Shown here one piece after another: positions 1,623-34,080 of a DNA stretch of 34,785 bases. The stretch is from a virus. The notes beneath the pieces are model-generated. The model was not told the DNA's origin and did not search any database. It saw only the letters and a program-made list of their open reading frames with translations. Within the stretch, counting starts at the first letter, position 1. Every line of letters starts with the position of its first letter. The stretch lies in IMG/VR virus record IMGVR_UViG_3300043466_002550, positions 1-34,785 of that record; one strand, written 5' to 3'. A program made the position numbers and the translations under genes.

Positions 1623-4600
1623 ATGAGTAGTCAACAACAAACATTATTAAGGGTACAAACAAACGTACCATCTTTAACTTTATCAGGCGCAACAACATAT
1701 GAATATTTAGATTTGTATGATGATATACCTATCAAGATAAATAAATCGTTTGCAGAATTACAAGACATATCAAAAAAGAACACTGACTTTTCAGTAAATC
1801 TTTCTTTACCTGGTTCAAAAACAAACAACAGATTTTTTGAAAGTTTCTTTAACGTGGATGTGGATGCGTTGTATTTTTTTAGTAATAAGAAGACACCTTG
1901 TGACGTATTAATAGACAACCAATCATTCTTTAATGGTTATATGAGGTTGAATAAAGTGAATGTGTTAGATAGTAAGGTAGAGTATGACGTAACATTATTT
2001 AGTAGTGTAGCTAATTTATTCGGTGATATAGGAAACAAGCTATTAAAAGATTTAGATTTTAGTGACCCAGAATATACTTTTAACCACACGTTCAATTTAT
2101 ACAACGCAGTTGAACCTTATCAAGATGAGGAAACTAATTTTGGTTTAAATCAAGAAGCACCTTATCTATATTTTTATCCAATAGTACATAATGGTTATGA
2201 ATATTCAGGTTCAACAATTAATTTAAGTGGTGGTACCACAAACGAACAAACAAGATTTTATACATCAACAGGACCTATATCAGGATGGACAGGTAGTACA
2301 GAAATGTTTGCAGCAGGTGTTCAACATTATAGAATTAACACACCAGGCGAAGGTATATATGACAATCAATTGAAACCTGCATTAAGTATGTGGGGATTAT
2401 TAAAATTGATATTCAAGACATACGGATATAGTATTACATCGGACTTTATGAACACACCCTGGATGAAGACCTTATATATGTATGGTTATTTTAGTTCAAG
2501 CGCAACAAAATTTAGCTACACATTAAACACAATAGAATATCTACCACGAGAAGGAGTTGAATTAATTTATAGCGGTTCAACAAGTTATGCTACACCATTG
2601 AGTGTTATTATATGTAAGAGAGGTACAGGCATCCCTTGTTATTGTTCTGAAACAATTAATTATAGGTTTGCTAATATGTTCCCATATACTGAAAGCGGTT
2701 CAATACCGACAGGTGTAAGTGGTGCAACATTCAACGCAGTGTATGGATTTGATTTTGGCATCCCAACTGATGGGGTACCTGTTGCAGACATAAGTACGTT
2801 AAAGTATTTACCAAAAGCTGTAGGCTCACCTGTTATATTTCAGGAAGGTGATGCAGTTAATTTTAGTTTAGTGGTAGACCAAAATATTAAACAGATAGAT
2901 ATTATATCATCTATTGCTAAAAAGTTTAATTTAGTATTTATTCCTGACCCTAATAATCCACGCAATATAATTATTGAACCTTATTCTTACTACATTGGAA
3001 CAGGTGTGGTACACGATTGGACAAGTAAATTATCTTACGATAAAGGATTTTCAGTTGAACCTGCGTTAAACTATATTGAAAGCAATTTAATTTTTACAGA
3101 TTTAGAAGATGGTGATTATGGAAATAAAGAATTTAAAGATAGAGAGAAGCAGGTTTATGGAACGCAGTTGTTTTACGGACCAACTGATTTTAAATCACAA
3201 ACAGGAATTACAGAAACAATATTCTCACCTGAGGTATTAAGACAATGGGACACCGCAGACCAGCCTAACAATGGTGGTATTAAATTACCATTAGGTATTA
3301 ATTATGTGGGTTCATCAACAACGGAAGATGTTGGTGGTAATAGTCAAACATTCTACGCTTATAAAGGATTAAAAACAAAACCTAAACTATTTTGGTTCTT
3401 AGGTTGTCATAATATGTTTTTAGACACATTAGGTGAAGTATATGAATATAATACAGGATATAGTACATATAAGATAAATGTCAATTCATCAGATGATGCG
3501 ACGGGTTTATCTTTATTAACAGCACCAATCATATCACATACAATGCCAATGGGTATGAAAGATAGTGATAAGATTAATAATGATAGTGCGTGTGTATTAT
3601 TTAGTTCAGAATTTCCTGTTGATATTGGTGTGCAGACATACAATGTATATACAGAAAATGATGCGTACAATTTATTTTATGAGAATAGAATAAGTAATTT
3701 ATATAATTCAAATACAAGATTTGTTAATGGTATGTTTGATTTAAAATATTCAGACATTATCAATTTGGAACCTAAGGATATTATTAAAATACAAGAACAA
3801 TACTTTTACGTTAATAAAATATCAGAATATAATTTAGTAAGTCCTGAATTGACAAGGGTTGAATTGGTACAGACCAATTTAAATCCACAAACATATCCAA
3901 CACGATATTTCAAATATCAGTACTGCGACCAAACAGGTTATACGTTTGCAATAGCTACTGACTTTACTAACCCTAATTTAAGAGACACAAGTTTTGGTTG
4001 GAGTATATATTACGACCAAATGATTGGAACATTTACAGGTTCAACTGTACCATCAGGATTTACAGCTTGTTTAAGAGATATAAGAACGTCAACAATCAAT
4101 TTTATTCCATTTACAATAAATGAAATAACTGAAAGCGAATATCAAAACTCAGGATATATAAATTGGACTGGTGACACGATGCTTGAACACGTATGGAATT
4201 ATGTTAATCCATCATTCCCAAATACCACATATGCGTTTGGTTTAAGCCTACCATCATTTTGGATTAACGATGCTGGTACATATACAGGTCTAAACTTATT
4301 TACGAATTGCGCTGAGTTTAATAGCACTGCAACAACATACGGAATATTAACAGGGTCATCACAATATTATGGTGCACCATTGACAGGAAGCTGCTTTAAC
4401 TATTACACACACTTTCAAACATCAGGTAACACTGCAGGAATTATAAGGGATGTATTAATTAATGATGACTATTCAACTTATGTTGGTGGTAGTTTTAGAA
4501 AATACAATAGCGCAACGGTTGGTAGTATAACAGGTAGCACTGGACCTAATATGATTAAACTTAAATACGATGGTTCGGTAGACCCATCATTTACAAATTA

Positions 4601-6050
4601 TGGTTTTGGTCAGACAGGTGATGTATATACAATTAAAAAACAATCAACAGGTAAATTAATTGTTGCTGGTGGATTTGGGTCTTATAGTGGAAATACAAGG
4701 TTACTTATATTAAGATTAAATGTTGATGGAACATTAGACACAACATTTAACGCATCATCAATAATAGGCTTCACTGGTGGTAGTGGTGGTATAAATGATG
4801 TAGAAATATTAAGTGATGATAGTATTATTGCAGTGGGTGGCTTACAAATAAGTGGTTCAACTCAAACATCAATAGCTAAATTTAATAGTAATGGTGGATT
4901 AGCAACAGGATTTACAAGAAACCTTGTAACTACAGGTTCAACAATATATGACGTTGAGGTTTATAATGGTCAATTAGTAGGTTCATTTGATGGTAGAATT
5001 GTAGTATGTGGTAACTTTACAACGTGGGGTGGAGTGTCAAGAAATAGAATTGCAATGCTAAATAGTGATGGAACTTTATTTACTTTCTTTAATCCAGGAA
5101 CAGGTTTTACAGGAGGTACAATATCAAATGTGGAAATACAATCTGATGGAAAAATTATTGTAGGTGGTCAATTTACATCATATAATGGAACAACAGGTCT
5201 ACAAGGTATTTGTAGATTAAATTATGATGGAACATTAGACACCACATTCCAAACAAACTTTACAGGTGGAACACCATATACTTGTTTTAGACCTTTATAT
5301 TTACCAACAGGAAAAATATTAACAACGCTTAGTTATAATAGTGGTACAACCATATATAAATTTGTTAGATTAAATAGTGATGGTTCAATAGACCCAACAT
5401 TTAATACGGGAACTTATGATAATTTTAATTTTAGTACAGAAAATGCAACTGCAGTACAAGAAGATGGAACAATTTATTTTGGTAGCACATTCCAAACTTA
5501 CAATGGTAGAAATTTATGGTCAATAGTTAAATTAAATCCTGATGGTTACTTCGTTGAGTGTCCTGAAGACGCATCTTCTATACCATTACCAATTACACCT
5601 GAATTAGAACCTTTAAATCTTAACTCAAGAACAGTTAATTTAACATTAACCAAAACTCCTTTTTATGACACTTCATTCCCTGACCAAACTTCTGTATTAT
5701 TAGCAGGACAACGTTTCACTGAAATTAATAAATTATATCAATATACATTTACAGGTACAACTACTTTAACAATGTTTGCAATAATTGGTACTATATTAGG
5801 TACAAGACGTGCAAGAGTTGATATATATCAAAAATATTTTACTCAAGATGAGGAAAATGGTGATAAGGGTATTGTAAGAGAATTAATAGAAAGCACAACT
5901 GCTATCTTATTTCAACCTCCTTATGGTTATATAGTTCCAGTAATAAGTAAAACTTTACCTGACGCTACACCACCATTACCACCTGCACCAGCACGTAATA
6001 CGGTATATCATTTAGAATTTGATGTGGAGGTTTCATTCTATACGGTATAA
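1623..6050 (+). CDS. Large tail-tip/baseplate protein with delta-60 repeats (1475 aa)
   Basis: Probable baseplate or tail-tip protein. Residues about 35-80 (KSFAELQDISKKNTDFSV, then LPGSKTNNRFFESFFNVDVD) match a pattern I recall from the start of tail proteins of Bacteroidetes phages. Residues about 975-1310 carry about seven copies, spaced roughly 55-60 residues apart, of the motif [KR]-L-[NK]-x-D-G-x-x-D-x-x-F, for example RLNVDGTLDTTF and RLNYDGTLDTTF. These are delta-60 repeats (DUF5122 type), which probably form a beta-propeller. They alternate with 'GKIIVGGxFxxYNG' strands. The last 170 residues look like another beta domain. The propeller may bind a receptor or glycan (inference). The start at ATG 1623 follows the previous stop by 3 nt. 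Confidence 0.7.
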   Translation: MSSQQQTLLRVQTNVPSLTLSGATTYEYLDLYDDIPIKINKSFAELQDISKKNTDFSVNLSLPGSKTNNRFFESFFNVDVDALYFFSNKKTPCDVLIDNQSFFNGYMRLNKVNVLDSKVEYDVTLFSSVANLFGDIGNKLLKDLDFSDPEYTFNHTFNLYNAVEPYQDEETNFGLNQEAPYLYFYPIVHNGYEYSGSTINLSGGTTNEQTRFYTSTGPISGWTGSTEMFAAGVQHYRINTPGEGIYDNQLKPALSMWGLLKLIFKTYGYSITSDFMNTPWMKTLYMYGYFSSSATKFSYTLNTIEYLPREGVELIYSGSTSYATPLSVIICKRGTGIPCYCSETINYRFANMFPYTESGSIPTGVSGATFNAVYGFDFGIPTDGVPVADISTLKYLPKAVGSPVIFQEGDAVNFSLVVDQNIKQIDIISSIAKKFNLVFIPDPNNPRNIIIEPYSYYIGTGVVHDWTSKLSYDKGFSVEPALNYIESNLIFTDLEDGDYGNKEFKDREKQVYGTQLFYGPTDFKSQTGITETIFSPEVLRQWDTADQPNNGGIKLPLGINYVGSSTTEDVGGNSQTFYAYKGLKTKPKLFWFLGCHNMFLDTLGEVYEYNTGYSTYKINVNSSDDATGLSLLTAPIISHTMPMGMKDSDKINNDSACVLFSSEFPVDIGVQTYNVYTENDAYNLFYENRISNLYNSNTRFVNGMFDLKYSDIINLEPKDIIKIQEQYFYVNKISEYNLVSPELTRVELVQTNLNPQTYPTRYFKYQYCDQTGYTFAIATDFTNPNLRDTSFGWSIYYDQMIGTFTGSTVPSGFTACLRDIRTSTINFIPFTINEITESEYQNSGYINWTGDTMLEHVWNYVNPSFPNTTYAFGLSLPSFWINDAGTYTGLNLFTNCAEFNSTATTYGILTGSSQYYGAPLTGSCFNYYTHFQTSGNTAGIIRDVLINDDYSTYVGGSFRKYNSATVGSITGSTGPNMIKLKYDGSVDPSFTNYGFGQTGDVYTIKKQSTGKLIVAGGFGSYSGNTRLLILRLNVDGTLDTTFNASSIIGFTGGSGGINDVEILSDDSIIAVGGLQISGSTQTSIAKFNSNGGLATGFTRNLVTTGSTIYDVEVYNGQLVGSFDGRIVVCGNFTTWGGVSRNRIAMLNSDGTLFTFFNPGTGFTGGTISNVEIQSDGKIIVGGQFTSYNGTTGLQGICRLNYDGTLDTTFQTNFTGGTPYTCFRPLYLPTGKILTTLSYNSGTTIYKFVRLNSDGSIDPTFNTGTYDNFNFSTENATAVQEDGTIYFGSTFQTYNGRNLWSIVKLNPDGYFVECPEDASSIPLPITPELEPLNLNSRTVNLTLTKTPFYDTSFPDQTSVLLAGQRFTEINKLYQYTFTGTTTLTMFAIIGTILGTRRARVDIYQKYFTQDEENGDKGIVRELIESTTAILFQPPYGYIVPVISKTLPDATPPLPPAPARNTVYHLEFDVEVSFYTV

Positions 6051-7607: not shown

Positions 7608-10600
7608 ATGGCTAAAACACTTATATTAGACACACAAGTAAAGACCGACCAGATAGATAAAGCGGTCAGTAAATTAGGTCAATTAAAAGATTTAGGTAGG
7701 GGTCTTAAAATACAATATGATATTGATAATAAACCTTTAGAAGTAGTTATTGATAAGACAAAAAATTTACAAGAACAATTTAAGTTAGTTACTCGTGAAC
7801 TTAAAAGAACTAAGGAAGGTACTGCTGAGTTTCAATTGTTGGCTAAAACACAAGGTGATATTCAAGATGCGTTAGGAAGAACAGCAGCAAAATCAAAAGA
7901 TTTATTTTCGTCTTTATCATTATTACCAGGTCCTATTGGTCAGTTTTTTAACCAGTTACAAGGTACTATTGAATTATTAAAAACATTTTCATCATTTACC
8001 TTTAAAGATGTTGCTTTTCAATTTAAAGAAGCCGCAGGTGATATTGCTGATATTGCAGAAAATTTATCTGATGTTACAGACAATACAGGTAAAATAGCTG
8101 GACCTACAACTTCAGCAGTTAATGGTTTAGCGGAAGCAACAACCGCAGGTGCTGCTGCAACAGTAGCTTCAACAGTAGCGGTAAAATCAAATACAGTAGC
8201 AACAGTAGATAATATAGCTGCACAAGAAATAAACACTTTATCAGGTAGAAAATTATCAGCTGTAATTCAAGCAACTACAACAGCTTTAGGTGCTGTTGAT
8301 GCAACATATAAAAATAATATTGTTACGATGGTTCTTGCTGATGGAACTACTGCACAATTAACTAAATCAGAAATTTTAAATCAAGCTGCAACATTAGGTA
8401 TAGTACAAGCAAATACGGCTGCTGCTGCTTCAACAAGTATTTTTACAGAAACTTTAGTAGCGTTACGTGCAGTGCTTACTTCAACATTTGTTGTTATTAC
8501 AAGTTTGGTTACAGCTATTGGTCTTATAGGTTTTAAGACATATCAATGGGTAACAGCAACAACTGCTGCGGAAGAAGCACAAAAATCTATTAAAGAAGCG
8601 TTAAAGAAAGGTACTGAGGAATTAGGTAAAGCACAAAACGCAGTTAATGAAGTTCGTATTGCGTTTGAATTAGCTGCAAAAGGAACTATTACAAAAAAGG
8701 ACGCGTTAGACACATATAATAAAGTATTAGGTTCATCTATTGGTCAAGCAAAAACATTTAAAGAAGCTGAAGATTTATATAACGCTAATACAGGAAACTA
8801 TATTCGTGCAACAGGTCTTCGTGCGGAAGCACAAGCGTTATTTGCGGTTGCTGCAACAAAAAGTGCGGAAGCAATTGCTGCGGAACAACGAGGATTTTTT
8901 AGTTTTGAAAGAGGATTATTCCAAAATAAGACAAGTGAATTAATAGAAAGAAAGAATAAGCTAAATGAAACTGCTAATTTAATTAGAGAACAAGGTAACA
9001 AGTTGTTAGCGGACGCACTTGAATTAGAAAGTACATTTACTCCTGAAACCAAAACACCTGAAACAAAAACTCCTGACACAAAAAAGAAAGAAATTGATAT
9101 TAAAGCAGCAAACGCTTTATTACTAAAACTTCAACAAGAAAATACTGTTAATATATTAAATGAGGAAAGGAAAAGACAGGATGCGCAATTAAAAATAGAT
9201 AAACAAAATGAAGAAGCGCAAATTCAACAATTATTTGAAATTGAAGGTAAAAAAGTTAAATTAACTGTAGAACAAGAAAAAATTAAATCCGATTTGCTTG
9301 AACAAGTTAGAGTTAAATACGGATTAAAAGTAATTGATTTAAATAAGAAAAGACAAGAAGAAGATAATAAAACATTTGATGACGACCAAAAGAAATTAAA
9401 GGAATATCAAGATAAGATATTTGAAATAACAAACAACGCTGACGAAAATGAATTTTCAAGAAATAAAGCTGCAAGAACTAAAAAGTTTGAAGACGATAAA
9501 GCTGCATTAGAGAAAGACACTAACTTCCAAAAGCAATCATTAGAAGAAAAGATTAGAATATTACTTGCGTTAGAAAAGGAATATAATAGGGAGATAGAAA
9601 AAATAGATGCGGATGAAGTTGCAAGTAAAGAAGAAACAAATCAAAAACTAAGAGATAAGAACATTAAAAAATTAGAGGATGAATTAAAGTTCTTGCAGAT
9701 TAGAGGTGAAGCGTTAAGAGAAGGAACTAAATCATTCTTTAATAATCAACGTGATATACTTAAAGCAGCAGAAAAGAAAGAACTTGCTGACTTAGAAGAT
9801 AAAGCAATAAAAGAAAAACTTACAATTGAACAGATTGAAAAAGAAAAACTTGCAATTAAAGAAAAGTATTTAAAAGCTGCAAAAGATATTACCAATCAGG
9901 AATTAGAACAAATATTACAAGCAGCACAAGCAACATTGGGTGTGGCACAATCTATTGCACAAGATATTGGTAAGGTTGCACAATTAGAACAACAGGTTGC
10001 ACTTGAAGAAGCTAAAAAAAGATATATTGCGCAAAATGAACTTGATAAAAAGACAATCACGAATGCAGAACAACAAGAAGCTAAGTTATTAGAAAATAAG
10101 AAAAAGTTTGCTAAAGAAGAAGATGATATAAAGAGAAAAGCATTTGAGGAGAATAAGAAAATACAAATTGCACAAGCAATTATTGCCACATTACAGTCAG
10201 CTGTAGGTGCGTTCTCATCTCTTATTGCAACACCTTTTGTTGGACCAGTAATTGCACCGATTGCAGCAGCAGCAGCGTTGGTATTTGGTTATAAACAAGT
10301 AGCAGCAATTAAAAAGACACAATATCAATCACCAATTGAATTAAGTGAAAGTGAAACTGTTACTGTACCAAAATCAAATCCTGGTAGAAACTACGAAAAG
10401 GGTGGTATGATTGGTGGTAGAAGACACGCAGAAGGTGGTACATTGATTGAAGCGGAGAAAGGTGAGGCAATTATGACAAGAGGCAGTGTTGCAACGTTTG
10501 GTCCTTTACTATCATTAATGAACCAGGCAGGTGGTGGAGTTTCATTTAATTCAAACTTAATGACAACAAGACAAGATAATCCAATTGTAAATAACCCTGC

Positions 10601-10703
10601 ACAAGAACAAGCACCATTAATAGTGAAGACATATGTAGTTTCTCAGGAATTAACAACTGAAGCACAACGTCAAGCACGTCTTAAAAACCTATCAACAATT
10701 TAA
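7608..10703 (+). CDS. Tail tape measure protein (1031 aa)
   Basis: Determines tail length and is threaded through the tail tube. Evidence: the second-longest structural gene after the fibre-type proteins; long alpha-helical, Lys/Glu/Gln-rich coiled coil (residues about 490-860); a hydrophobic segment near residues 280-305 (LTSTFVVITSLVTAIGLIGF) and a second near 865-900 (SLIATPFVGPVIAPIAAAAALVF); and a glycine-rich C-terminal stretch 'GGMIGGRRHAEGGTLIEAEKGE' type, which I associate with tape measures of Bacteroidetes phages. At about 1.5 angstrom per residue, the usual rule, it would set a tail of roughly 150 nm. The ATG at 7608 follows the preceding stop by 1 nt (TAATATGG). No peptidase or transglycosylase motif was seen. 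Confidence 0.88.
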   Translation: MAKTLILDTQVKTDQIDKAVSKLGQLKDLGRGLKIQYDIDNKPLEVVIDKTKNLQEQFKLVTRELKRTKEGTAEFQLLAKTQGDIQDALGRTAAKSKDLFSSLSLLPGPIGQFFNQLQGTIELLKTFSSFTFKDVAFQFKEAAGDIADIAENLSDVTDNTGKIAGPTTSAVNGLAEATTAGAAATVASTVAVKSNTVATVDNIAAQEINTLSGRKLSAVIQATTTALGAVDATYKNNIVTMVLADGTTAQLTKSEILNQAATLGIVQANTAAAASTSIFTETLVALRAVLTSTFVVITSLVTAIGLIGFKTYQWVTATTAAEEAQKSIKEALKKGTEELGKAQNAVNEVRIAFELAAKGTITKKDALDTYNKVLGSSIGQAKTFKEAEDLYNANTGNYIRATGLRAEAQALFAVAATKSAEAIAAEQRGFFSFERGLFQNKTSELIERKNKLNETANLIREQGNKLLADALELESTFTPETKTPETKTPDTKKKEIDIKAANALLLKLQQENTVNILNEERKRQDAQLKIDKQNEEAQIQQLFEIEGKKVKLTVEQEKIKSDLLEQVRVKYGLKVIDLNKKRQEEDNKTFDDDQKKLKEYQDKIFEITNNADENEFSRNKAARTKKFEDDKAALEKDTNFQKQSLEEKIRILLALEKEYNREIEKIDADEVASKEETNQKLRDKNIKKLEDELKFLQIRGEALREGTKSFFNNQRDILKAAEKKELADLEDKAIKEKLTIEQIEKEKLAIKEKYLKAAKDITNQELEQILQAAQATLGVAQSIAQDIGKVAQLEQQVALEEAKKRYIAQNELDKKTITNAEQQEAKLLENKKKFAKEEDDIKRKAFEENKKIQIAQAIIATLQSAVGAFSSLIATPFVGPVIAPIAAAAALVFGYKQVAAIKKTQYQSPIELSESETVTVPKSNPGRNYEKGGMIGGRRHAEGGTLIEAEKGEAIMTRGSVATFGPLLSLMNQAGGGVSFNSNLMTTRQDNPIVNNPAQEQAPLIVKTYVVSQELTTEAQRQARLKNLSTI

Positions 10704-10704
10704 T

Positions 10705-10830
10705 ATGGCTAAGAGTAAATCATCAAACAACAATAAAGTCTCTTTTGGAAAGAGAAAATGTGGGTCTGCAAAAAAGTCCTACAATAAACACACACCGAAA
10801 CCTAAACCTTATCGTTCACAAGGACGTTAA
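10705..10830 (+). CDS. Small basic protein (41 aa)
   Basis: The start ATG lies 1 nt after the tape measure stop (TAATATGG). The 41 residues contain about 13 Lys/Arg and end in KPKPYRSQGR, with FGKRKCGSAKKSYNKHTP before it. The pattern 'FGKRxxGxAKKxxNKHxxKxKPYxxQGR' looks like a small basic protein type I have seen next to head genes in related phages, so I consider it real despite its size. A nucleic-acid-binding or internal virion role is plausible from the charge, but there is no direct evidence. It is followed by the TATATTTA element before the protease gene. Confidence 0.6.
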   Translation: MAKSKSSNNNKVSFGKRKCGSAKKSYNKHTPKPKPYRSQGR

Positions 10831-10837
10831 AAATATA

Positions 10838-10845
10838 TATATTTA
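10838..10845 (+). promoter_or_regulatory. TATATTTA element before the head protease gene
   Basis: TATATTTA ends 5 nt before ATG 10851, in the 20-nt gap after the small basic protein gene. Same element and spacing as at 6074, so it may drive a head-gene transcript. Confidence 0.35.
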
Positions 10846-10850
10846 TCAAT

Positions 10851-12350
10851 ATGATTAAGAAAGACAAATTATTTGAATTAAAGATAGAAGAAGATGATGA
10901 CGTTAGTGGTATAGATAGTATATCACTTGTGGATGAACCCGCGATTGAAATTAATTGGATGTACTTCAACAAGGTGAAACAACAAGAGTTTCATATTCCT
11001 GATAATGAGGATGAGAAGTATTTGGAAAAATTAAAAGCAATTGCGCAGGATGAACAAGAATTACTTAATGAAGGTTGGGTAGTTTCAAAAGTTACACCAA
11101 TGGGTAAGGAAGGTTTTATTACTGCACCAGACCCAAACGCTGCATCAGCAGAAAATGAAAAGGAATATAGAGTAAGATATAAATACGTATTAAATCCAGC
11201 AGCAGGTACACAACCTATTATAGACACTACAAGGGATTTTTGTAGGGAATTAGTACAAAAGAATTATGTATGGAGGTTAGAAGATTTGGATGCACTTACA
11301 AACGATGAAGGTGACCCTGCAATAGTGTGGCGTGGTGGCTATAATTGTCGTCATTTATGGGCGAGAATAGAATATAACTACGATGACACCATTAGAAATA
11401 AAGCGTCCGTAAATAGGGGTAAAATTGACCCACAAGCACCATTGGACACAAGGATATTAGGAATGGAACAACCTTCAACAGTTGTACCATCACATCCATC
11501 GTTCAGTAAAGTAGAAATGGAAAGTGTGAGTGACTATCCTGAAAGTGTTAGTAATAACGCAAAAGCAGTATTGAAGTATGTAGAAGAAAATGGGTGGGGA
11601 AGTTGTGGAACTGAGGTAGGAAAAATACGTGCTAATCAATTAGCTAATGGTGAACCTATTAGTTTAGAAACTGTAAAACGTATGTATAGTTACTTATCAA
11701 GACACGAAGTAGATTTAGAAAGTAGTAAGTCATACGATGATGGATGTGGTAAGTTAATGTATGATAGTTGGGGTGGTAAGAGTGCTTTAAGTTGGAGTGA
11801 AAGTAAATTAAATGATTTTGGTTATGACGTAGGTTCAATTGGTGGATATGAAGACCCAAACATTAAAAAGAAAAAGAAGAAGGACCAAAAGTTTGCACAA
11901 GATGAAGAAAAACGTACAATAGTTGGACCTGCAATGGTTCCTGATTTACGCATCCGACGTAGAACAAAAGATGGTGAGATGTATGAAGTATTTTTTAGTG
12001 AAGAAACTATCAAGATGATTGCTGAAAAATATATGAAGAACCAATACACACGCAATAACGATTTGATGCACGATGGTACAGCAGTTAAAGATGTGTATGT
12101 GGTAGAGAGTTGGATTAAGGAAGATATGGAAGATAAATCCAACAAGTATGGTTATGGTGATTTACCAATCGGTACGTGGTTTGTTGCAATGAAGGTAGCA
12201 AAAACACCTGAGGGTGATAAGGTATGGGAGATGGTAAAGTCAGGAGAATTAGCAGGATATAGCGTGTCAGGATGGTTTGAAGAAGTGGCGCAGTTCTGTC
12301 GTGAGGAGATGTTCCTGAAAAAAGTTGCGGAAATTCTAAACAAATACTAA
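10851..12350 (+). CDS. Head maturation protease, XkdF/S78-like, with inserted domains (499 aa)
   Basis: Probable prohead protease that cleaves scaffold and capsid during head maturation. The C-terminal domain (about residues 360-485) matches the XkdF-like serine protease family (Peptidase_S78_2): VGPAMVPDLRIRRR, then DLMHDG with His407, VYVVESW with Ser420, GTWFVAMKV and GYSVSGWF. His407 and Ser420 are the likely catalytic pair. The N-terminus (SGIDSISLVDEPAIEINW) also fits this family. Between them are a Cys131...GGYNCRH (Cys166, His168) segment resembling the C-terminal part of Mu gpF-like minor head proteins, and a YPESVSNNAK...GCGKLMYDSWGG segment (about 228-310) known to me from other phage head proteins but of unknown function. 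It lies just before the scaffold and capsid genes. Confidence 0.82.
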   Translation: MIKKDKLFELKIEEDDDVSGIDSISLVDEPAIEINWMYFNKVKQQEFHIPDNEDEKYLEKLKAIAQDEQELLNEGWVVSKVTPMGKEGFITAPDPNAASAENEKEYRVRYKYVLNPAAGTQPIIDTTRDFCRELVQKNYVWRLEDLDALTNDEGDPAIVWRGGYNCRHLWARIEYNYDDTIRNKASVNRGKIDPQAPLDTRILGMEQPSTVVPSHPSFSKVEMESVSDYPESVSNNAKAVLKYVEENGWGSCGTEVGKIRANQLANGEPISLETVKRMYSYLSRHEVDLESSKSYDDGCGKLMYDSWGGKSALSWSESKLNDFGYDVGSIGGYEDPNIKKKKKKDQKFAQDEEKRTIVGPAMVPDLRIRRRTKDGEMYEVFFSEETIKMIAEKYMKNQYTRNNDLMHDGTAVKDVYVVESWIKEDMEDKSNKYGYGDLPIGTWFVAMKVAKTPEGDKVWEMVKSGELAGYSVSGWFEEVAQFCREEMFLKKVAEILNKY

Positions 12351-15312: not shown

Positions 15313-16476
15313 ATGAGTGAAGAAAAACAAAAATACCAATTAGCAAAAAGTGATTTTAGACAAGAACCATTACTTCCAATATTCAGTGAAGTATTAAATC
15401 GTTTGGACTACGTTCTATACGGTGAAGGTAACTTGATGCCACAATTTCTAATATCAAGGTATAACAACTGCGCAATCCATAAAGCAATTATAACATCAAA
15501 AAAAGAACAGATATTAGGTGATGGAATTGTTTCATTAAACAACCCAATGGTAACCGTTAATTTAATTAACGATAGTGAAGATGTTACTGACGTGCTTGAA
15601 AAGTGTGCGTTGGATTTAGTATTGTTCGGTGGATTTGCATTAAACGTAATATGGTCAAAAGACCGTAAGAGTATTGCAGAAATATACCACATTGATTTTA
15701 GTAGATTAAGAAGTGGTAAGATTAATCCTGAGACAGATAAAATTGAAAAATATTATTACTGTGCAGACTGGTCTAACACAAAAAAGTTTAAGATTGATGA
15801 GTACCCTTGTTTCAGTCAGAAAGAGAGTAACCCAAATCAAGTTTATTACTACAAACAATATTCACCATCGCAGTCGTACTACCCACACCCTGATTATAGT
15901 GGTGGACTTAGTGCAATTGAAATTGATGTGAACATAAAAGAATTTCACGCTAATAATTTGAAGAATGGTATGCTGCCGTCATTATGGATTAATATGAATA
16001 ACGGCATCCCTGGTGAAGAAGAACAACGTCTCGTTACACGTGCATTAGAAAGCCAATTTACAAGTGTAAATAACGCAGGTAGACCAATCATCTCCTTCAA
16101 CGAAAGCAAGGAATTATCCCCTGAAATAACGCAAATAGCTACATCAGGTAACGACCAATACTACCAAACAATTTATGACGATATTGTACGTTCAATTTTG
16201 TCTGCACATCGTATTTCAAGCGGTGAGTTATTTGGTATTAGCACTGCAAACAAGTTGGGTAGCAAGGACGAAATAAATACGCATATTGAATATATACGTA
16301 AGTCAGTAATACAACCATATCAAAAACAATTGTTGGGTGTATTTGACAAGCTATTAACACTTAAAACAGGTGTTCCAACAACATTAGAAATTAAACCAAT
16401 GAGTATATACGAAGAAGGTGATATAGAACAACAACCGACAGTAGTTGACACTCCAGAAACCCCAACACAAATATAA
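15313..16476 (+). CDS. Portal protein, PBSX/HK97-like (387 aa)
   Basis: Dodecameric ring at the capsid vertex through which DNA is packaged and to which the tail attaches. Evidence: 'FLISRYNNCAIHKAIITSKKEQILGDGI' near the N-terminus (about residues 45-73), the central 'VLEKCALDLVLFGGFALNVIWSKD', and the C-terminal 'LSAHRISSGELFGI' followed by a long helix (IEYIRKSVIQPYQKQLLGVFDKLL), all characteristic of small portals. The length is somewhat short for the family, as in PBSX-like portals. It is followed by the head-tail adaptor gene. Unusually, it lies downstream of the capsid and tail tube genes rather than next to the terminase. Confidence 0.85.
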   Translation: MSEEKQKYQLAKSDFRQEPLLPIFSEVLNRLDYVLYGEGNLMPQFLISRYNNCAIHKAIITSKKEQILGDGIVSLNNPMVTVNLINDSEDVTDVLEKCALDLVLFGGFALNVIWSKDRKSIAEIYHIDFSRLRSGKINPETDKIEKYYYCADWSNTKKFKIDEYPCFSQKESNPNQVYYYKQYSPSQSYYPHPDYSGGLSAIEIDVNIKEFHANNLKNGMLPSLWINMNNGIPGEEEQRLVTRALESQFTSVNNAGRPIISFNESKELSPEITQIATSGNDQYYQTIYDDIVRSILSAHRISSGELFGISTANKLGSKDEINTHIEYIRKSVIQPYQKQLLGVFDKLLTLKTGVPTTLEIKPMSIYEEGDIEQQPTVVDTPETPTQI

Positions 16477-26673: not shown

Positions 26674-27241
26674 AATAGAATTTATAATCCCAACGTGGGA
26701 AAGACCTGAGGAATTAAAACTAATATTACAATCACTGATGGTGCAGACCAATCCAAATTGGAAAGCGCACGTGGTTATAGACGGATTAACGGACGAATAT
26801 CGTGGAGTGAAGGATTTATATCAGGATGAAGATAAGGTCCGCTTTAGCCACGTAGATGGTCCTAATAACGATTGGGGTCACACTGCACGTAACTACGGAT
26901 TGGACCACGCACAAGAAGAATGGATTGTAATGACAGGGGATGACAACTATTATATTCCAACCTTCGTAGATAATTTTTTAACTGAGGGTGAATTAGGTAG
27001 AGATTTAGTGTACTGTGATTTACTGCACGATATGAAAATGGATAGTTACTTACCTATTAAATCTAAAATATCTGAGGGATGGATTGATATTGGAAACTTT
27101 ATGACAAGAAGAACTACCATTGGTGATTTAAGATTAATAACAGACAGCTATCAAGCAGACTATAAATTTGTGAATTACATTAATAAACATAAGACAAGTA
27201 AGGTGGGTAAGATAAATAAAGTATTATACGTACACAACTAA
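26666..27241 (+). CDS. Family 2-type glycosyltransferase, GT-A fold (191 aa)
   Basis: Transfers a sugar from a nucleotide-sugar donor. The start SKIEFIIPTWERPEELKLILQSLMVQTNPNWKAHVVIDG is the classic GT-A nucleotide-binding beginning ('vsiiIPTynRpeeL..ll.Sl..Qt...we.ivvdDg'), and MTGDDN (about residues 90-95) is the DxD-type metal site after HTARNYGLDHAQEEWIV. It is short, and the acceptor half is reduced. It lies between the terminase subunits, its stop overlapping the large-subunit start by 1 nt (TAATG). Possible acceptors are modified DNA bases, a virion protein or a host surface glycan. The location in the packaging operon suggests late expression. Confidence 0.85.
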   Translation: MSKIEFIIPTWERPEELKLILQSLMVQTNPNWKAHVVIDGLTDEYRGVKDLYQDEDKVRFSHVDGPNNDWGHTARNYGLDHAQEEWIVMTGDDNYYIPTFVDNFLTEGELGRDLVYCDLLHDMKMDSYLPIKSKISEGWIDIGNFMTRRTTIGDLRLITDSYQADYKFVNYINKHKTSKVGKINKVLYVHN

Positions 27242-28569
27242 TGGAAATAAATTTAAACTTAACTAAGAAGCAAGGTGAAACATTTAAAATCCTACTTGAT
27301 AAAACACATCGTGAAGTATTATACGGTGGCGCAAAAGGTTCAGGTAAATCCTATTTGGGTTCTGTTTGGGTTCTATATATGTGCATTACTTATCCTGGCA
27401 TACGTGCGTTGATAGGACGTACAGTTCTGACGCAGCTACGAGTAACTACAATCAAAACATTAATGGACTTATTCAAGGAGTGTGGTATTACAGGGGAACA
27501 TTATACATACAACCAACAATCAAACGAATTGAAATTCTTTAATGGTAGTGAGATAGTGTTCAGGGATTTACAATACAATCCATCAGACCCTAACTACGAT
27601 AGTTTGGGTGGACTTGAATTAACGATTGCGTTTATAGATGAGGTTGCTCAGGTAAGTAGACAGGCGTACGATGTAGTACGTTCATTGCTGCGTTATAAGA
27701 TTAATGAGTACAAGTTAAAGCCTACACTCTTTATGTCCTGTAACCCATCACAATCGTGGTTAAAGCAGGAGTTTTATTTACCACACGTACAAGGAACATT
27801 AGATGCAACTAAAATATTCATACAGGCTTTACCAACAGATAATAAATTTTTACCAGCAGAATATTTGGATATATTAAAGAACCTACCACCAAAACAAATG
27901 AAGCGTTTGTATTTGGGTGATTGGAACTACGAGACCGAAGAAGATAGCTTGTTTGATTTTGACACCATCAGTTCAAGTGTGTTTAGAATTGCACCGAATG
28001 TAGACGATAAGAAGTTTATGAGTGTGGACGTTGCACGATTTGGTAGTGATAGGTCAGTGGTAGTATTATGGGTGGGGAATGTTATAACAGAAATATTAGT
28101 GTATAGTAAATTATCAACAACAGAATTAAGTGAGGAGATAAAAGGTTTAATACAAAAGTATGGTGTGCATCCACAAAATATTGTGGTGGATAGTGATGGA
28201 GTAGGTGGAGGTGTTGCAGACCAAATACGTGGGAAGAACTTCGTTAATAATAGTTCACCACTACACAAACAAAACTATACCAATTTAAAATCACAATGTT
28301 ATATTAAGTTAAGTGAGATGTTTAAGGAAGGTAAGATTAGTATTAATGTTATGGACCCAAACATAATAGACACACTAACACAAGAACTATTAAGTGTACG
28401 ATTAAAAGACACTGATAAAGATAATAAGGTAGGCGTACATTCAAAAGACGAGATGAAAAAGATATTGGGAACATCACCCGATATATCTGATGCAGTGATG
28501 ATGAAGATGTTATTTGAAGTGCAGAACCATAAGACGACAGGAAGGTATAGTATATCCTTCATACAATAA
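27241..28569 (+). CDS. terL: Terminase large subunit (442 aa)
   Basis: ATP-driven DNA packaging motor and nuclease. N-terminal ATPase: Walker A GGAKGSGKS (residues 29-37), Walker B TIAFIDE (Asp133-Glu134) and coupling motif FMSCNPSQSW (164-173). C-terminal RNase H-like nuclease: Asp263 in MSVDVARFGSD, Asp317/Asp319 in VVDSDGVGGG, and Asp414/Asp417 in SPDISDA near the end. All key acidic residues are present and the length is normal for this family (Terminase_6/PBSX-like). It is coupled to the glycosyltransferase gene and followed by the tail chaperone-like gene. Confidence 0.95.
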   Translation: MEINLNLTKKQGETFKILLDKTHREVLYGGAKGSGKSYLGSVWVLYMCITYPGIRALIGRTVLTQLRVTTIKTLMDLFKECGITGEHYTYNQQSNELKFFNGSEIVFRDLQYNPSDPNYDSLGGLELTIAFIDEVAQVSRQAYDVVRSLLRYKINEYKLKPTLFMSCNPSQSWLKQEFYLPHVQGTLDATKIFIQALPTDNKFLPAEYLDILKNLPPKQMKRLYLGDWNYETEEDSLFDFDTISSSVFRIAPNVDDKKFMSVDVARFGSDRSVVVLWVGNVITEILVYSKLSTTELSEEIKGLIQKYGVHPQNIVVDSDGVGGGVADQIRGKNFVNNSSPLHKQNYTNLKSQCYIKLSEMFKEGKISINVMDPNIIDTLTQELLSVRLKDTDKDNKVGVHSKDEMKKILGTSPDISDAVMMKMLFEVQNHKTTGRYSISFIQ

Positions 28570-28579
28570 ATATATATAT

Positions 28580-29323
28580 ATGATTAAGTTTAAGATTGAA
28601 GACAAGGGTTATGAACTACCCGAAGTAATGACGATAGGTCATTACGTAAAGATTTACAAGATAAAGAATTTGTTTAGTGATGATTATTACGCAGCTAAAT
28701 TAGTGAACCTATTAACAGGTGCGCCTGTTGAAGATTTGTTAGAGACAGATTATGAACAGGTTAATTTTTTAGCAGAACAAATACTAAAACTAATCCCACA
28801 AGAAATACCTAAGTTCAAGGACCGATTTACATTGGATGGTGTTGAGTATGGTTTCTTTCCTAATTGGAGGGACGTGTCGTTTGCAGAATATGTGGATATG
28901 GACACCATCTCAACTAAGAAGGAAGAAGAACTATTGGACTACCTGCATATACTTGCATCAATAATGTACAGACCAATTATAACTGAAAGGTCACACCACG
29001 ATTTTGATATTGAGAAATACGATATTAAAAGTATGAAGACACGTGCAGAACTGTTCAAAAACAAATTAGATATAGGTGTTGTTTTATCAGCGCAGTTTTT
29101 TTTTATCAACTTCGCAAGGAGATTTTCAACTCATTCCCAGCTGTCTTTAGTGACGAAGCTGCCGATATGGACGAGGATAAAAATAATGTGGTCAATGAGA
29201 AAGCTAATAATGAACGTTCTTTTCAAGCGGTCTACGGTTGGTTCGTTGTCGTCAATAGATTGGCTGGAAATGATATTGCAAAACACGACACCATCTACGA
29301 AAAAACGGTGGTGGAAGTTCTAA
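28580..29323 (+). CDS. Tail-assembly-chaperone-like protein, zero-frame product (247 aa)
   Basis: Start ATG 28580, after TATATATAT; a longer frame starting inside the terminase gene is not used. Residues 1-172 are well-ordered: an N-terminal 'ELPEVMTIGHYVKIYKI' region, then 'FTLDGVEYGFFPNWRDVSFAEYVDMDTI' and 'LDYLHILASIMYRPIIT', a layout I associate with tail assembly chaperone-like proteins. After a run of nine T (29096-29104) this frame continues 72 codons with an unconvincing composition and stops at 29321-29323, while the -1 frame holds a protein-like continuation. The true long product is probably a -1 frameshift fusion of about 272 aa. Confidence 0.65.
   Translation: MIKFKIEDKGYELPEVMTIGHYVKIYKIKNLFSDDYYAAKLVNLLTGAPVEDLLETDYEQVNFLAEQILKLIPQEIPKFKDRFTLDGVEYGFFPNWRDVSFAEYVDMDTISTKKEEELLDYLHILASIMYRPIITERSHHDFDIEKYDIKSMKTRAELFKNKLDIGVVLSAQFFFINFARRFSTHSQLSLVTKLPIWTRIKIMWSMRKLIMNVLFKRSTVGSLSSIDWLEMILQNTTPSTKKRWWKF
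29096..29104 (+). promoter_or_regulatory. Slippery T9 tract, probable -1 frameshift or transcriptional slippage site
   Basis: In the zero frame the tract reads CAG TTT TTT TTT ATC, so it holds a perfect T-TTT-TTT heptamer. Re-reading one T gives TAT CAA CTT and a continuous protein to 29397. The -1 frame is open from 29029, so the switch must occur between 29029 and 29323, and this tract is the best candidate. A sequencing or assembly loss of one T is the alternative. Confidence 0.6.
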
Positions 29324-29397
29324 ACCAATTGTCTTTCGTAATTAATTATGAGGAGGAGATGAACAGGCTTACAAGACAAGCACAAGGTGCAGTTTAA
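29104..29397 (+). CDS. C-terminal part of the tail chaperone-like protein, -1 frame
   Basis: Begins at the codon TAT reached by the -1 slip and continues as YQLRKEIFNSFPAVFSDE, then an acidic stretch (DMDEDKNNVVNEKANNE), then 'RSFQAVYGWFVVVNRLAGNDIAKHDTIYEKTVVEVLNQLSFVINYEEEMNR' up to TAA 29395-29397. The latter part looks like the 'WY..l..LA..Di.k.d.i..l...e.l..La' end of related phage proteins. No ATG occurs in this frame between 29029 and 29167, so expression either depends on the slip or restarts at ATG 29167 (76 aa). About 97 residues would be added to the first 175. Confidence 0.6.
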   Translation, partial: YQLRKEIFNSFPAVFSDEAADMDEDKNNVVNEKANNERSFQAVYGWFVVVNRLAGNDIAKHDTIYEKTVVEVLNQLSFVINYEEEMNRLTRQAQGAV

Positions 29398-29433: not shown

Positions 29434-30441
29434 ATGGTCAATTATAAACAGATTATACAGGATTTAAGTGGTATTGCTTACCACCACCCTCAGTTAAATT
29501 CATTTGGATATGGGGATATTACCCAATTGACAATGGATATTGACACCAAACAGGAACCAGTGTACGCAAAAATGTATGTGGTACCAGGTCAAACGGTGTT
29601 CGCACAAAACAGAATTGACTATAATTTCTCAATTATTATATGTGATATTGTAAATAACGACCTATCAAATCAGGAAGATGTAATGTCTGACACGTTTGAA
29701 ATAGTAAAAGACGTGTGGACTATCCTATATCAATCCTATACAGCTACGTTTGGTGGGTTCAGTATTGACTACGAACCATTATGGAACAGCAATGTGTTAC
29801 CATTTTTAGAAAGGTATGAAACATTTTTGGGTGGATGGACAATGAATATAACCATTGAACAACCATTTGACTACAACAATTGCGTATTACCTGTCTCAGG
29901 ATTAACATTACCAACATCAGTGAACGAAGTAAATTACGCATTGATATTGGATGACTTAAAAGAAATAGCACGTGCACACGAACAAATTAATTCTTATGGG
30001 TTCGGTGATATAGCGCAGCTAACAATGGACATTGAGACAGAACAAGAACCTGTCTACACGAAGATGTATGTTATACCAGGCACTGCAATATTAGCGCAGA
30101 ACGAATTGGTATATAATTTCCAAATAGTAGTGTCCGATATTGTGAATGTTGATATATCAAATCAACGTGACGTGATGAGTGACACACTTGAAATTTGTAA
30201 TGACATATTCACCATACTTTATTTGAGTGAGTACGAATTAAATTGGAACGCAACGTGTGACCCATTCCTTGAAAGATTTGAAACAGTTTTAGGTGGGTGG
30301 ACATTATCAATACAAGTAACACAACCGTTTGATTATAACCGATGCGTGTTACCTGAATTACCATTCGTGGTGCAGAATAAAAAGTGGTACGAGTTAGCAG
30401 AATTATGGAACACAATATCAACAGTATGGAGAAAAGTATAA
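29434..30441 (+). CDS. Tail-completion-type protein with internal tandem duplication (335 aa)
   Basis: Two homologous halves. Residues about 1-155 and 165-320 both run: 'hpQlNSFGYGDITQLTMDI', 'QEPVYxKMYVxPG', 'NQxDVMSDTxEI', 'FLERxETxLGGWT' and 'QPFDYNxCVLP'. Roughly half of aligned positions are identical by eye. Each half resembles a tail-completion or tail-terminator-like domain of T4-like and Bacteroidetes phages ('GfGdi...', 'DVLSDT..I', 'PF.ER..d...GW', 'NRC..P'). One fused polypeptide with two copies might form a ring of half the usual subunit number, or the copies may bind different partners. It sits between the chaperone-like gene and the tail fibre. Confidence 0.68.
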   Translation: MVNYKQIIQDLSGIAYHHPQLNSFGYGDITQLTMDIDTKQEPVYAKMYVVPGQTVFAQNRIDYNFSIIICDIVNNDLSNQEDVMSDTFEIVKDVWTILYQSYTATFGGFSIDYEPLWNSNVLPFLERYETFLGGWTMNITIEQPFDYNNCVLPVSGLTLPTSVNEVNYALILDDLKEIARAHEQINSYGFGDIAQLTMDIETEQEPVYTKMYVIPGTAILAQNELVYNFQIVVSDIVNVDISNQRDVMSDTLEICNDIFTILYLSEYELNWNATCDPFLERFETVLGGWTLSIQVTQPFDYNRCVLPELPFVVQNKKWYELAELWNTISTVWRKV

Positions 30442-30462: not shown

Positions 30463-33400
30463 ATGGGTCAATTAACAAATCAATATGTAAGCAGTTCTTA
30501 TCAGGGTCTTTTAAAGATGACTGATAGCACACAAGGTCTAACCAATACATTACAGACAATACAAACAGGTGATGGTGATAATAGTCCATTACAAATGTCA
30601 TTTACTGAGGTGAACATATCAGGTTCATTCTTTATAAACAACGTTCCAATCACAAACGGAACTAATGGTACGTCAGGTACCTCAGGTGTTGCAGGTTCGT
30701 CAGGTACGAGTGGCAGTTCAGGTTCTAACGGTTCAAGTGGAACGAGTGGTCAATCAGGTTCCTCAGGTTCAGCAGGTAGTGACGGTTCATCAGGAACAAG
30801 TGGTACGTCAGGTTCTAATGGCTCGTCAGGTACAAGTGGAGTTGACGGTTCGTCAGGAACCTCAGGTTCTAATGGTAGTGATGGAAGTAGTGGAACATCA
30901 GGTGTTGCAGGTTCGTCAGGTACGAGTGGTACATCATTTGAAAGTCCATATACAGGAGATATAATTGTTACAGGTTCAATAGATATTACAGGACAATTCT
31001 TAGTGAATGGTGTTCCTGTTACAGGTTCAGGTGGCGGTGGAGATAGAAATGGTTTAATCACAACAGGTTCGGTTACAGACACACAACAAATTACAGGTAG
31101 TTTAATATTAGGTAATACAGTTATATCAGGTTCATTAGTTGGTAATACAATTAATCGTGGTTTTATTAAAATTACAAGTGAAGCGGCAGTAAGTGGAACA
31201 CTACAATTAAATGTAACATCATCAAATGCAGTTTCACAATCTAATTTATTATTTGTACCTGCAGCACCGAGTGCAGTAGTTGCATCACAATTAACAGGTT
31301 CAATTGTTATATCAGGTAGTAATAATATTTTATTTCAGACAGCAAGAACACAATCTCCAACACAAACAGCAAATGGAATTTATGGTTATATAGGTGGTAG
31401 TAACAATATTATTTCAACAATACCTTTATTTACTACTGCGTCACTTACTCAGCGACCTGTTATGAATAATAACCAATTAAATGGTTTATTATCAATAGGA
31501 TTAATTACATCAAGTTTAAATAGCAGTACAAATAATAACGTAATTTATGGTGGAGTAACATTAGCATCACAATCAGGTTCATTTGCTTATCAAAATAATT
31601 TTAATAACTCACAAGTAACATTAAATCAAAATACTAATCCACTTACAGGTAGTGGAACAGCAGGTAATACATTTATTAGTCAAAACAATTTTGGTGGTGG
31701 TATAACATTAAACGCTGTTAGTTCATCAATACAAGCAACAGGCAATATAACATTTGGTGGTGGAACATTTGTAACAAACTCATATTTTCAAACAGGTTCA
31801 AACAGTTTTGTAAATATACAAGCAAACATATTAGGTGGTAGTAATAACCACGTTCAATTTGGTGGTAACCCTCAAACAAACATCGCAAGGAGTTTTTCTA
31901 CAAACATATTAGGTGGTACTAATAATATTGTTAATATGGACGCAACAGGTTCTAATACTAATATGTTTAGCACACTTATATACGGTCAATCACTTTCAAT
32001 TAATCCAAAAGAACAAATTGACGGTATGGCTGTTTTAGGTAAGTATAACAAACCAGTTACAGGTAGTACAATATTTGTTGTTGGTAATGGTACAGGTACA
32101 GGTGATAGAAGAAACGCAATTGAGGTAACGACTAATAATCAAACATTAATTTCAGGTTCGGTTAATATATCAGGTTCATTACAAGTTAATGGACTAACAC
32201 CACTAATAGGAACAGCAGGACTTATAACAACAGGTTCTTATAACGGACTACAATCAATGAGTAGTTCATTATTAGTTGCTAATACATCTAATGCAGGACA
32301 CCCTTATTTATTACAAGCACAAGCGTTTGATTTTACTAATAACGCTTTATCAGTTACAGGTAGAACAAATATTACAGGTTCATTAATTGTTAATGGTACA
32401 ACAATAACAGCAGTAGATAGAAACGGATTAATAACAACAGGTTCAGCTGGACAAACACAAAATATTACAGGTTCATTAATTGTTAGTAGTAGTGCCGTTA
32501 CAATAATAGCAGGACCAGGTAACCCTACTAATACTCTTGATATTCAGTCAGGTTCAATGCGAATGTCTGACATATCAGGTTCTATTAGAATTGCAACTGC
32601 AAACAACCAACCTCAATTATTTTTTAATCCGACAAGGAAAGTTGGTTTCTTCTTAGGTCAATCAAATATGGACCAAGTCAATACACAATTTGGTATTACC
32701 GATGATAGCACTGACAACTACACAATGGGTGGTAACTTTAATAACTTCAGGACAGGTTCAAATAACTTGATGTTAGGTGTTCAATCCATTAGTATAAGGT
32801 CAGGTTCTAATAACATAATTTTAGCACGTGACACAAATTACAATACAGGTTCAAATAACTTGATGTTAGGTAGAGGACCATTAGGTGTAAATGAATGTCA
32901 AGAATATTTCAATTTACAATTACCTAATGGCGGTACACCTATTATGTTTAAGAGTGGTAGTGCTGCATTAACTTTAAATAGTAATACAACAATATCAGGT
33001 TCACTAAATGTAACAGATAAAATAAACAATCTAAAAATATGGACGGGTAGTTTAAATAGTAATAGTATTGGTATTGGTAATAGTACATTAAACTCTCAAA
33101 CAGGTTCATCATTAAATAATATTGCAATTGGTGGTGGTGCTTTACAAACAAATGTAACTGGTTCTGGAATAGTTGCGATTGGTGATAGTGCTTTAAGAGA
33201 TAGTGTAGCAGGATTTAACTTAGCGTTAGGTTCGTCCGCTTTACAAGCAAACACAACAGGTCAGTACAATATTGGTATAGGTCAATCATCAGGTCAAGCA
33301 AATACAATAGGAGAAAAGAACATATCAATTGGTTGGAATAGTTTTGTTAATAATACAACAGGTTCAACCAATACAGCAATAGGCGCACAATCATTACAGA

Positions 33401-34080
33401 ATAACATTAGTGGTTCAGGTAATGTTGCAATAGGAAATAGTGCAGGTTATTACTCAACAAGTTCAAATGAATTTTTTGTTGGTAATGATAATTATGGTGG
33501 TGTTAATACTGAAAGAAGTGGTTCATTATTTTGGGGTCAATTTAATAGTACAACTGCAAACCAAACATTACAGATTAACGCACAAACATCTGTTAGAAAT
33601 AATTTAGTTGTAAGTGGTTCATTAACAGTAGGTGGTAATTTACAATTTAATGTTGGTGATTTTTACTCAACTCAAACACAAACATTAGCAGCAGGTGTTT
33701 CAGGTAGTGTAACTTATAACAATACAGGTACATCTTTTGGTGTTACATTAGCGTCAAGTTCACAATTAACAATAGCAAACGCAGGTGTTTATTCAATTAC
33801 ATTCTCAGCACAAATTAAAGGTGATGGTGGACAAGACACCGTTTATATGTGGTTAAAGAAAAACGGTACAAATGTAGCAGACACCGCAACTAAATTAGTT
33901 GCTAAAAATAACGAAGAAGATGTTATGACAGTAGAGTATATCGTTCAAGCTGCAGCAAGTGACTATTATGAAATTGCGTGGCAGAACTTAAATGGTGATG
34001 GTGATTTATTATATGAAGCAGCGTCAGGAAATATACCAGCAATACCATCAATAATAACAAGTGTAAAACAAGTTAGATAG
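30463..34080 (+). CDS. Tail fibre with collagen-like stalk and C1q-like tip (1205 aa)
   Basis: Receptor-binding tail fibre candidate. Residues 1-65 form an N-terminal attachment region. Residues 66-157 are about 31 uninterrupted Gly-x-y triplets rich in Ser, Thr and Asn (GTSG, GSSG, GSNG), a collagen-like triple helix. Residues about 165-865 are repetitive beta structure with 'GSLxVNGTxI' and 'NNIIxGGSNN' units. Residues about 868-1010 carry YadA-head-like repeats (NIAIGGGALQ, VAIGDSALR, NISIGWNSF, NTAIGAQSL, NVAIGNSAG), typical of trimeric adhesins. Residues about 1070-1205 resemble a C1q/TNF-like jelly roll (AGVYSITFSAQIKGDGG, VYMWLKKNGTNV). No S74 chaperone peptidase is visible. Ends with TAG overlapping the next GTG. 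Confidence 0.85.
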   Translation: MGQLTNQYVSSSYQGLLKMTDSTQGLTNTLQTIQTGDGDNSPLQMSFTEVNISGSFFINNVPITNGTNGTSGTSGVAGSSGTSGSSGSNGSSGTSGQSGSSGSAGSDGSSGTSGTSGSNGSSGTSGVDGSSGTSGSNGSDGSSGTSGVAGSSGTSGTSFESPYTGDIIVTGSIDITGQFLVNGVPVTGSGGGGDRNGLITTGSVTDTQQITGSLILGNTVISGSLVGNTINRGFIKITSEAAVSGTLQLNVTSSNAVSQSNLLFVPAAPSAVVASQLTGSIVISGSNNILFQTARTQSPTQTANGIYGYIGGSNNIISTIPLFTTASLTQRPVMNNNQLNGLLSIGLITSSLNSSTNNNVIYGGVTLASQSGSFAYQNNFNNSQVTLNQNTNPLTGSGTAGNTFISQNNFGGGITLNAVSSSIQATGNITFGGGTFVTNSYFQTGSNSFVNIQANILGGSNNHVQFGGNPQTNIARSFSTNILGGTNNIVNMDATGSNTNMFSTLIYGQSLSINPKEQIDGMAVLGKYNKPVTGSTIFVVGNGTGTGDRRNAIEVTTNNQTLISGSVNISGSLQVNGLTPLIGTAGLITTGSYNGLQSMSSSLLVANTSNAGHPYLLQAQAFDFTNNALSVTGRTNITGSLIVNGTTITAVDRNGLITTGSAGQTQNITGSLIVSSSAVTIIAGPGNPTNTLDIQSGSMRMSDISGSIRIATANNQPQLFFNPTRKVGFFLGQSNMDQVNTQFGITDDSTDNYTMGGNFNNFRTGSNNLMLGVQSISIRSGSNNIILARDTNYNTGSNNLMLGRGPLGVNECQEYFNLQLPNGGTPIMFKSGSAALTLNSNTTISGSLNVTDKINNLKIWTGSLNSNSIGIGNSTLNSQTGSSLNNIAIGGGALQTNVTGSGIVAIGDSALRDSVAGFNLALGSSALQANTTGQYNIGIGQSSGQANTIGEKNISIGWNSFVNNTTGSTNTAIGAQSLQNNISGSGNVAIGNSAGYYSTSSNEFFVGNDNYGGVNTERSGSLFWGQFNSTTANQTLQINAQTSVRNNLVVSGSLTVGGNLQFNVGDFYSTQTQTLAAGVSGSVTYNNTGTSFGVTLASSSQLTIANAGVYSITFSAQIKGDGGQDTVYMWLKKNGTNVADTATKLVAKNNEEDVMTVEYIVQAAASDYYEIAWQNLNGDGDLLYEAASGNIPAIPSIITSVKQVR
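30658..30936 (+). repeat. Collagen-like Gly-x-y coding repeat
   Basis: Repeated GGTTCGTCAGGTACG/TCAGGTACC-like nonamers encode the Gly-Ser/Thr-rich triplets of the fibre stalk. The units use varied codons but share longer blocks such as GTTGCAGGTTCGTCAGGTACGAGTGG at both ends (30688 and 30903 areas), so unequal recombination could change stalk length. Confidence 0.8.

Follow-up and report, generated by a model that had tools for sequence, protein, structure and literature searches.

Comparative sequence evidence for a conserved -1 frameshift gene with two selected C-termini next to terL in Bacteroidota tailed phages

Does the gene that follows the terminase in this viral genome encode one protein or two? 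The window analyzed here, meaning the whole 34,785-nucleotide stretch of the record, carries on its plus strand a 0-frame open reading frame (ORF; 28580..29323) that begins with the ATG at 28580, ends with the stop codon at 29321-29323 and encodes 247 aa. Within it lies a run of nine T (T9; 29096..29104, plus strand), and the sequence at 29084-29120 reads ...TTATCAGCG CAG TTT TTT TTT ATC AAC..., with T9 in register. The run contains the slip heptamer T_TTT_TTT (29098-29104; 0-frame codons TTT TTT). A step back of one base there would join aa 1-175, the common N-terminal domain, to a 97-aa extension in the -1 frame (29104..29397, plus strand; stop codon TAA ending at 29397), giving 175 + 97 = 272 aa. 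In the unshifted frame the same domain is followed by a 72-aa C-terminal tail (72 codons plus stop), which overlies the -1 frame at 29105..29323 (plus strand). The initial annotation had proposed a programmed -1 frameshift at this tract in a tail-chaperone-like gene, and direct reading of the sequence and of the ORF coordinates bears out the register of CAG TTT TTT TTT ATC and the two product lengths of 247 and 272 aa.

The terminase large subunit gene, terL (27241..28569, plus strand; phrog_2, E 3e-40, with Terminase_3 and Terminase_6N), lies directly upstream of the frameshift gene, in agreement with the earlier remark that the gene adjoins the terminase and not the tape measure. A virion-structural-like gene (29434..30441, plus strand; phrog_30964 and phrog_349) lies downstream, and the order terL, frameshift gene, virion-structural-like gene was found in both clades of relatives considered below.

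By itself the T9 tract is no more than chance would produce in an AT-rich phage, with three such tracts in the whole window against 4.6 expected; the evidence lies in the relatives. Searches of IMG/VR returned 24 and then 80 loci, giving 98 close rows with the site covered; a few of these represent the same contig twice, and the distinct close sequences number 64. Two distant sets, drawn from marine contigs, contributed 73 and 71 distinct loci (a 72nd in the second set ends at a contig edge). The more distant relatives (27-35% identity) were also met in flavobacterial genome contigs. A -1 switch at the homologous place, on a run of T7 to T12, was found in all 98 close and all 73 + 71 distant loci, approximately 240 in total. 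In the cultured Nonlabens phage P12024S the run is T9 and the -1 switch falls at the same place; GenBank and RefSeq split its frameshift gene (7824-8518) into two hypothetical proteins, genes 38 and 39. One switch site is thus shared by diverged homologues, as expected of a programmed -1 frameshift gene, and on this comparison its coincidence with the tract is far beyond chance. The question of whether homologues keep the tract together with the switch is answered affirmatively, since a T run was always present, and no uninterrupted homologue turned up among the relatives examined.

The heptamer itself is conserved. T_TTT_TTT is kept in the 0-frame register in 98/98 close loci, with T9 in 89 and T7 in nine; in the latter the first two T are swapped (ACT, AGT or TCT) and the heptamer remains in register, so that the X_XXY_YYZ pattern is present in the T7 variants as well. 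The distant loci all have T9 to T12, across three reading registers. Among 85 divergent representatives, the third position of the slip codons is T in 100%, whereas other conserved Phe columns of the same sequences use TTC in 12-29%. Natural length variants that keep the frame switch therefore exist at T7 (nine loci) and at T12. By eye, a Shine-Dalgarno-like GGAG stands 5' of the site in many relatives and is absent from the window.

Conservation in the -1 frame starts with the first codons past the slip site, where R, P and F are each 100% conserved at columns 180, 188 and 191, and translation would therefore enter the frame at that point. Between the two clades the -1 domain is homologous (HHalign probability 97.5), and it is predicted to be helical, with confidence in its last 55-60 residues only.

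The 0-frame tail was the less expected part of the gene. The initial annotation had noted that 247 aa is unusually close to 272 aa; the observation of size was sound, and the reason, that selection acts on the unshifted tail as well, was missed. Past the slip, most relatives have no 0-frame stop for 55-93 codons, and 64/64 distinct close sequences have none for 62-93 codons, whereas synonymous resampling of the -1 protein gave mean openings of approximately 5-36 codons (P mostly < 0.02). Among 51 representatives of the close clade there were no 0-frame stops from the slip to column 243, compared with hundreds in the third frame, and among 43 representatives of clade 2 there were 0 in 2250 cells, compared with 270 in the third frame. 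Where the amino acid is unchanged, codon identity in the close clade was 1.21 times the N-domain level in the overlap and 0.87 past it (Mann-Whitney, P 5e-7 and 2e-5, respectively). Synonymous conservation in clade 2 was likewise raised (1.23 versus 1.00 in the N-domain, P ~9e-7); past the overlap it was 1.10, a far-end contrast weaker than that in the close clade.

The ratio of third- to first-position substitutions (p3/p1) points in the same direction, with values of 1.85 for the N-domain, 1.03 for the overlap, 0.62 for the linker (columns 193-217) and 1.54 past the 0-frame stop (permutation, P < 1e-4). Substitutions in the linker follow the codon pattern of the 0 frame, falling on its wobble position; this stretch evolves as a gene in the 0 frame does. 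Its conservation is also higher in the 0 frame (K202 100%, W205 100%, R208 94%) than in the -1 frame (61%, 53% and 84%). In simulations, 0-frame amino-acid identity exceeded expectation; because the third frame did so too, this test was not used alone. The stop-free 0 frame, the suppressed synonymous change and the 0-frame wobble of the linker together show that both alternative C-termini are under selection in a dual-coding overlap. The tails of clades 1 and 2 share 23.7% identity, are not clearly homologous and differ in mean charge (+10 versus -3), and for these reasons the -1 domain looks older, with the 0-frame tails overprinted upon it. Some relatives have short tails of 19-46 codons, with 25 in P12024S.

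Taken together, we give a probability of about 0.7 to a programmed -1 frameshift gene, carried by tailed phages of Bacteroidota, with two products as described here. Comparative sequence analysis demonstrates the switch, the slip heptamer and the selection on both C-termini, and the frameshift originally proposed is strongly supported, its switch, place and heptamer being conserved across phages with only ~25-30% protein identity, a cultured isolate among them; at the level of sequence evolution its conserved and programmed nature is confirmed. In the proposed mechanism, the majority of ribosomes would stay in the 0 frame and make the 247-aa protein (N-domain plus 0-frame tail), which is probably the major product, while some would shift into the -1 frame on T_TTT_TTT (29098-29104) to make the 272-aa protein, in which the same N-domain carries the helical C-domain encoded in the -1 frame. 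Through the 0-frame tail the major form would have its own function. We consider it rather likely, at slightly lower confidence, that the gene encodes a two-ended tail chaperone, in which a single slip site chooses between two functional C-domains encoded in two frames of the same 55-93 codons, the 0-frame tail having arisen separately in different lineages by overprinting of the older -1 domain.

Several other explanations were weighed. Homopolymers are prone to sequencing and assembly error, and a real gene with T10 and one continuous frame would account for a C-domain that is conserved in all relatives and arises only from -1 fusion. We dropped this explanation and give it virtually no weight, because approximately 240 independent loci share the switch, including the isolates P12024S and Flagellimonas onchidii, and because the T7 relatives keep the heptamer in register; the selection on the 0-frame tail itself also stands against it. 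That the -1 frame is instead a separate gene with its own start is very improbable. An ATG-started -1 ORF does exist (29167-29397, 76 aa, from the ATG at 29167), and P12024S gene 39 is annotated in just this way, but strong -1 conservation begins at the slip, upstream of any start, and a conserved slip heptamer is not required under such an arrangement; an internal start was ruled out on the former ground. The 0-frame tail could also lack a protein function and be kept open only against premature termination or for the protection of the mRNA, as the dissimilar, differently charged tails of the two clades and the short tails of some relatives would allow. We regard this as improbable given that linker residues (K202, W205 and R208) are better conserved in the 0 frame than in the -1 frame and that linker substitutions obey the 0-frame codon pattern.

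The alternative that bears on mechanism is that RNA polymerase slips on T9 and adds a U, the -1 product then coming from edited transcripts. Bacterial RNA polymerase slips efficiently in vivo on runs of nine A or T (PMC5009743), and the distant loci all carry runs of 9-12, in three reading registers, as 89/98 close ones carry T9. On the other side, nine close relatives with T7 keep the switch, and hydrophobic residues can account for the flanking T, the middle T being invariant in half of the N-domain hydrophobic columns. In E. coli, U_UUU_UUU has been reported to be less slippery than A_AAA_AAG (PMC5009743), which counts against a ribosomal frameshift. The T7 relatives and the in-register heptamer nonetheless favor tandem tRNA slippage, and we infer that ribosomal slippage is clearly the likelier route, slippage by polymerase being unlikely although well short of negligible. 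The natural T7 and T9 variants could separate the two.

Downstream RNA stimulators are frequent at -1 frameshift sites and are not obligatory. RNAalifold on 38 sequences gave no pairs, and thus no conserved stimulatory structure was found around the slip; downstream of it, single-strand folds of the window were no better than shuffles. A hairpin upstream of the slip in the window has a z of -1.9.

The tail-chaperone label of the initial annotation remains plausible and is weakly supported. AlphaFold modeled the N-domain of the 0-frame product (residues 1-175) with a pLDDT of ~80-90 and the tail as low-confidence helices. Foldseek against the PDB gave no significant match; it matched many uncharacterized phage proteins, including P12024S gene 38. 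On a second look, the best PDB match was the HK97 tail assembly chaperone 2ob9, with a low Z of 4.1 (next 2.6), over model residues 1-73 (68 residues aligned, rmsd 3.4). Matches to Phage_TAC_19 were scattered and weak (2/42 members, best E 0.06). A PDB sequence search with the protein yielded nothing useful, and Pfam matches such as TetR_C_19 were dismissed as noise. Neither a tape measure gene nor a major tail gene could be recognized in the window; that the frameshift gene adjoins terL and not a recognized tape measure gene is a point against a chaperone. The 0-frame gene also does not end soon after the slip in the manner of G/GT, since 72 codons remain here and 62-93 in close relatives. 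We nevertheless think that the pair probably acts like lambda gpG/gpGT as tail assembly chaperones.

As in lambda gpG/gpGT, a -1 shift on a slip heptamer in a tailed-phage structural region joins the N-domain to an alternative C-domain, yielding a short 0-frame form and a fusion form. In lambda, however, G ends 18 nt past the slip (the length of the G/T overlap), the slip site is unlike T_TTT_TTT, and GT sits between the major tail and tape measure genes; here the 0 frame goes on for 72 selected codons and the gene follows terL. Phage P2 gpE/gpE+E' is another -1 frameshift that extends a tail protein, next to the tape measure gene T, but E stops ~20 nt past the annotated shift, without a long dual-coding overlap. 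HK97 gp13 (PDB 2ob9) is the best second-look structural match of our protein and HK97 likewise uses a -1 frameshift, whereas sequence similarity was not found, the Z is low and the gene order differs. A further counterpart is phrog_32199, with P12024S genes 38 and 39, which have a homologous N-domain and -1 C-domain, T9 and a position after terL; they differ in their annotation as two hypothetical proteins and in the 25-codon tail. In textbook frameshifted tail chaperones, the unshifted form ends close to the slip.

In the literature searched, mainly non-subscription papers, no report was found of this gene family, nor of a tail chaperone with a long dual-coding overlap. What is new is the selection on both C-termini in the overlap. 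Selection on the unshifted tail suggests that the short form plays an active part, and the gene would be a natural and widespread example of two proteins that constrain one another through their overlapping C-termini. The comparison further shows that hypothetical genes adjoining terL in Bacteroidota phages, whether annotated as a single ORF or as two, are frameshift genes.

Other possible relatives were seen in structure searches. The BFVD entries A0A6J5N0W0, A0A516L5A8 and A0A516L611 match the model of the 0-frame product and, weakly, that of the C-domain; judged from these models they may be uninterrupted relatives, and a profile search returned only frameshifted ones. Flavobacterium phage 6H encodes a structurally similar protein (10352-10927) with a different downstream frame arrangement, and a clear slip heptamer was not found in that region.

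Elsewhere in the window, the gene at 29434-30441 is made up of one domain (phrog_30964) repeated twice in tandem, whereas Flagellimonas and Pricia prophages have a single copy (~149 aa) after the frameshift gene. The 1205-aa protein encoded at 30463-34080 has long GTSGTSGS-type collagen-like repeats and is probably a tail fibre. A 1475-aa protein at 1623-6050 carries seven DUF5122 beta-propeller repeats, and its N-terminus (phrog_38559) is common to P12024S-type phages. Two genes ~3 kb apart, at 10851-12350 and 15313-16476, match the portal profile phrog_33693 at 424-522 and 12-367, respectively, and the former also matches head maturation protease and S49-like families.
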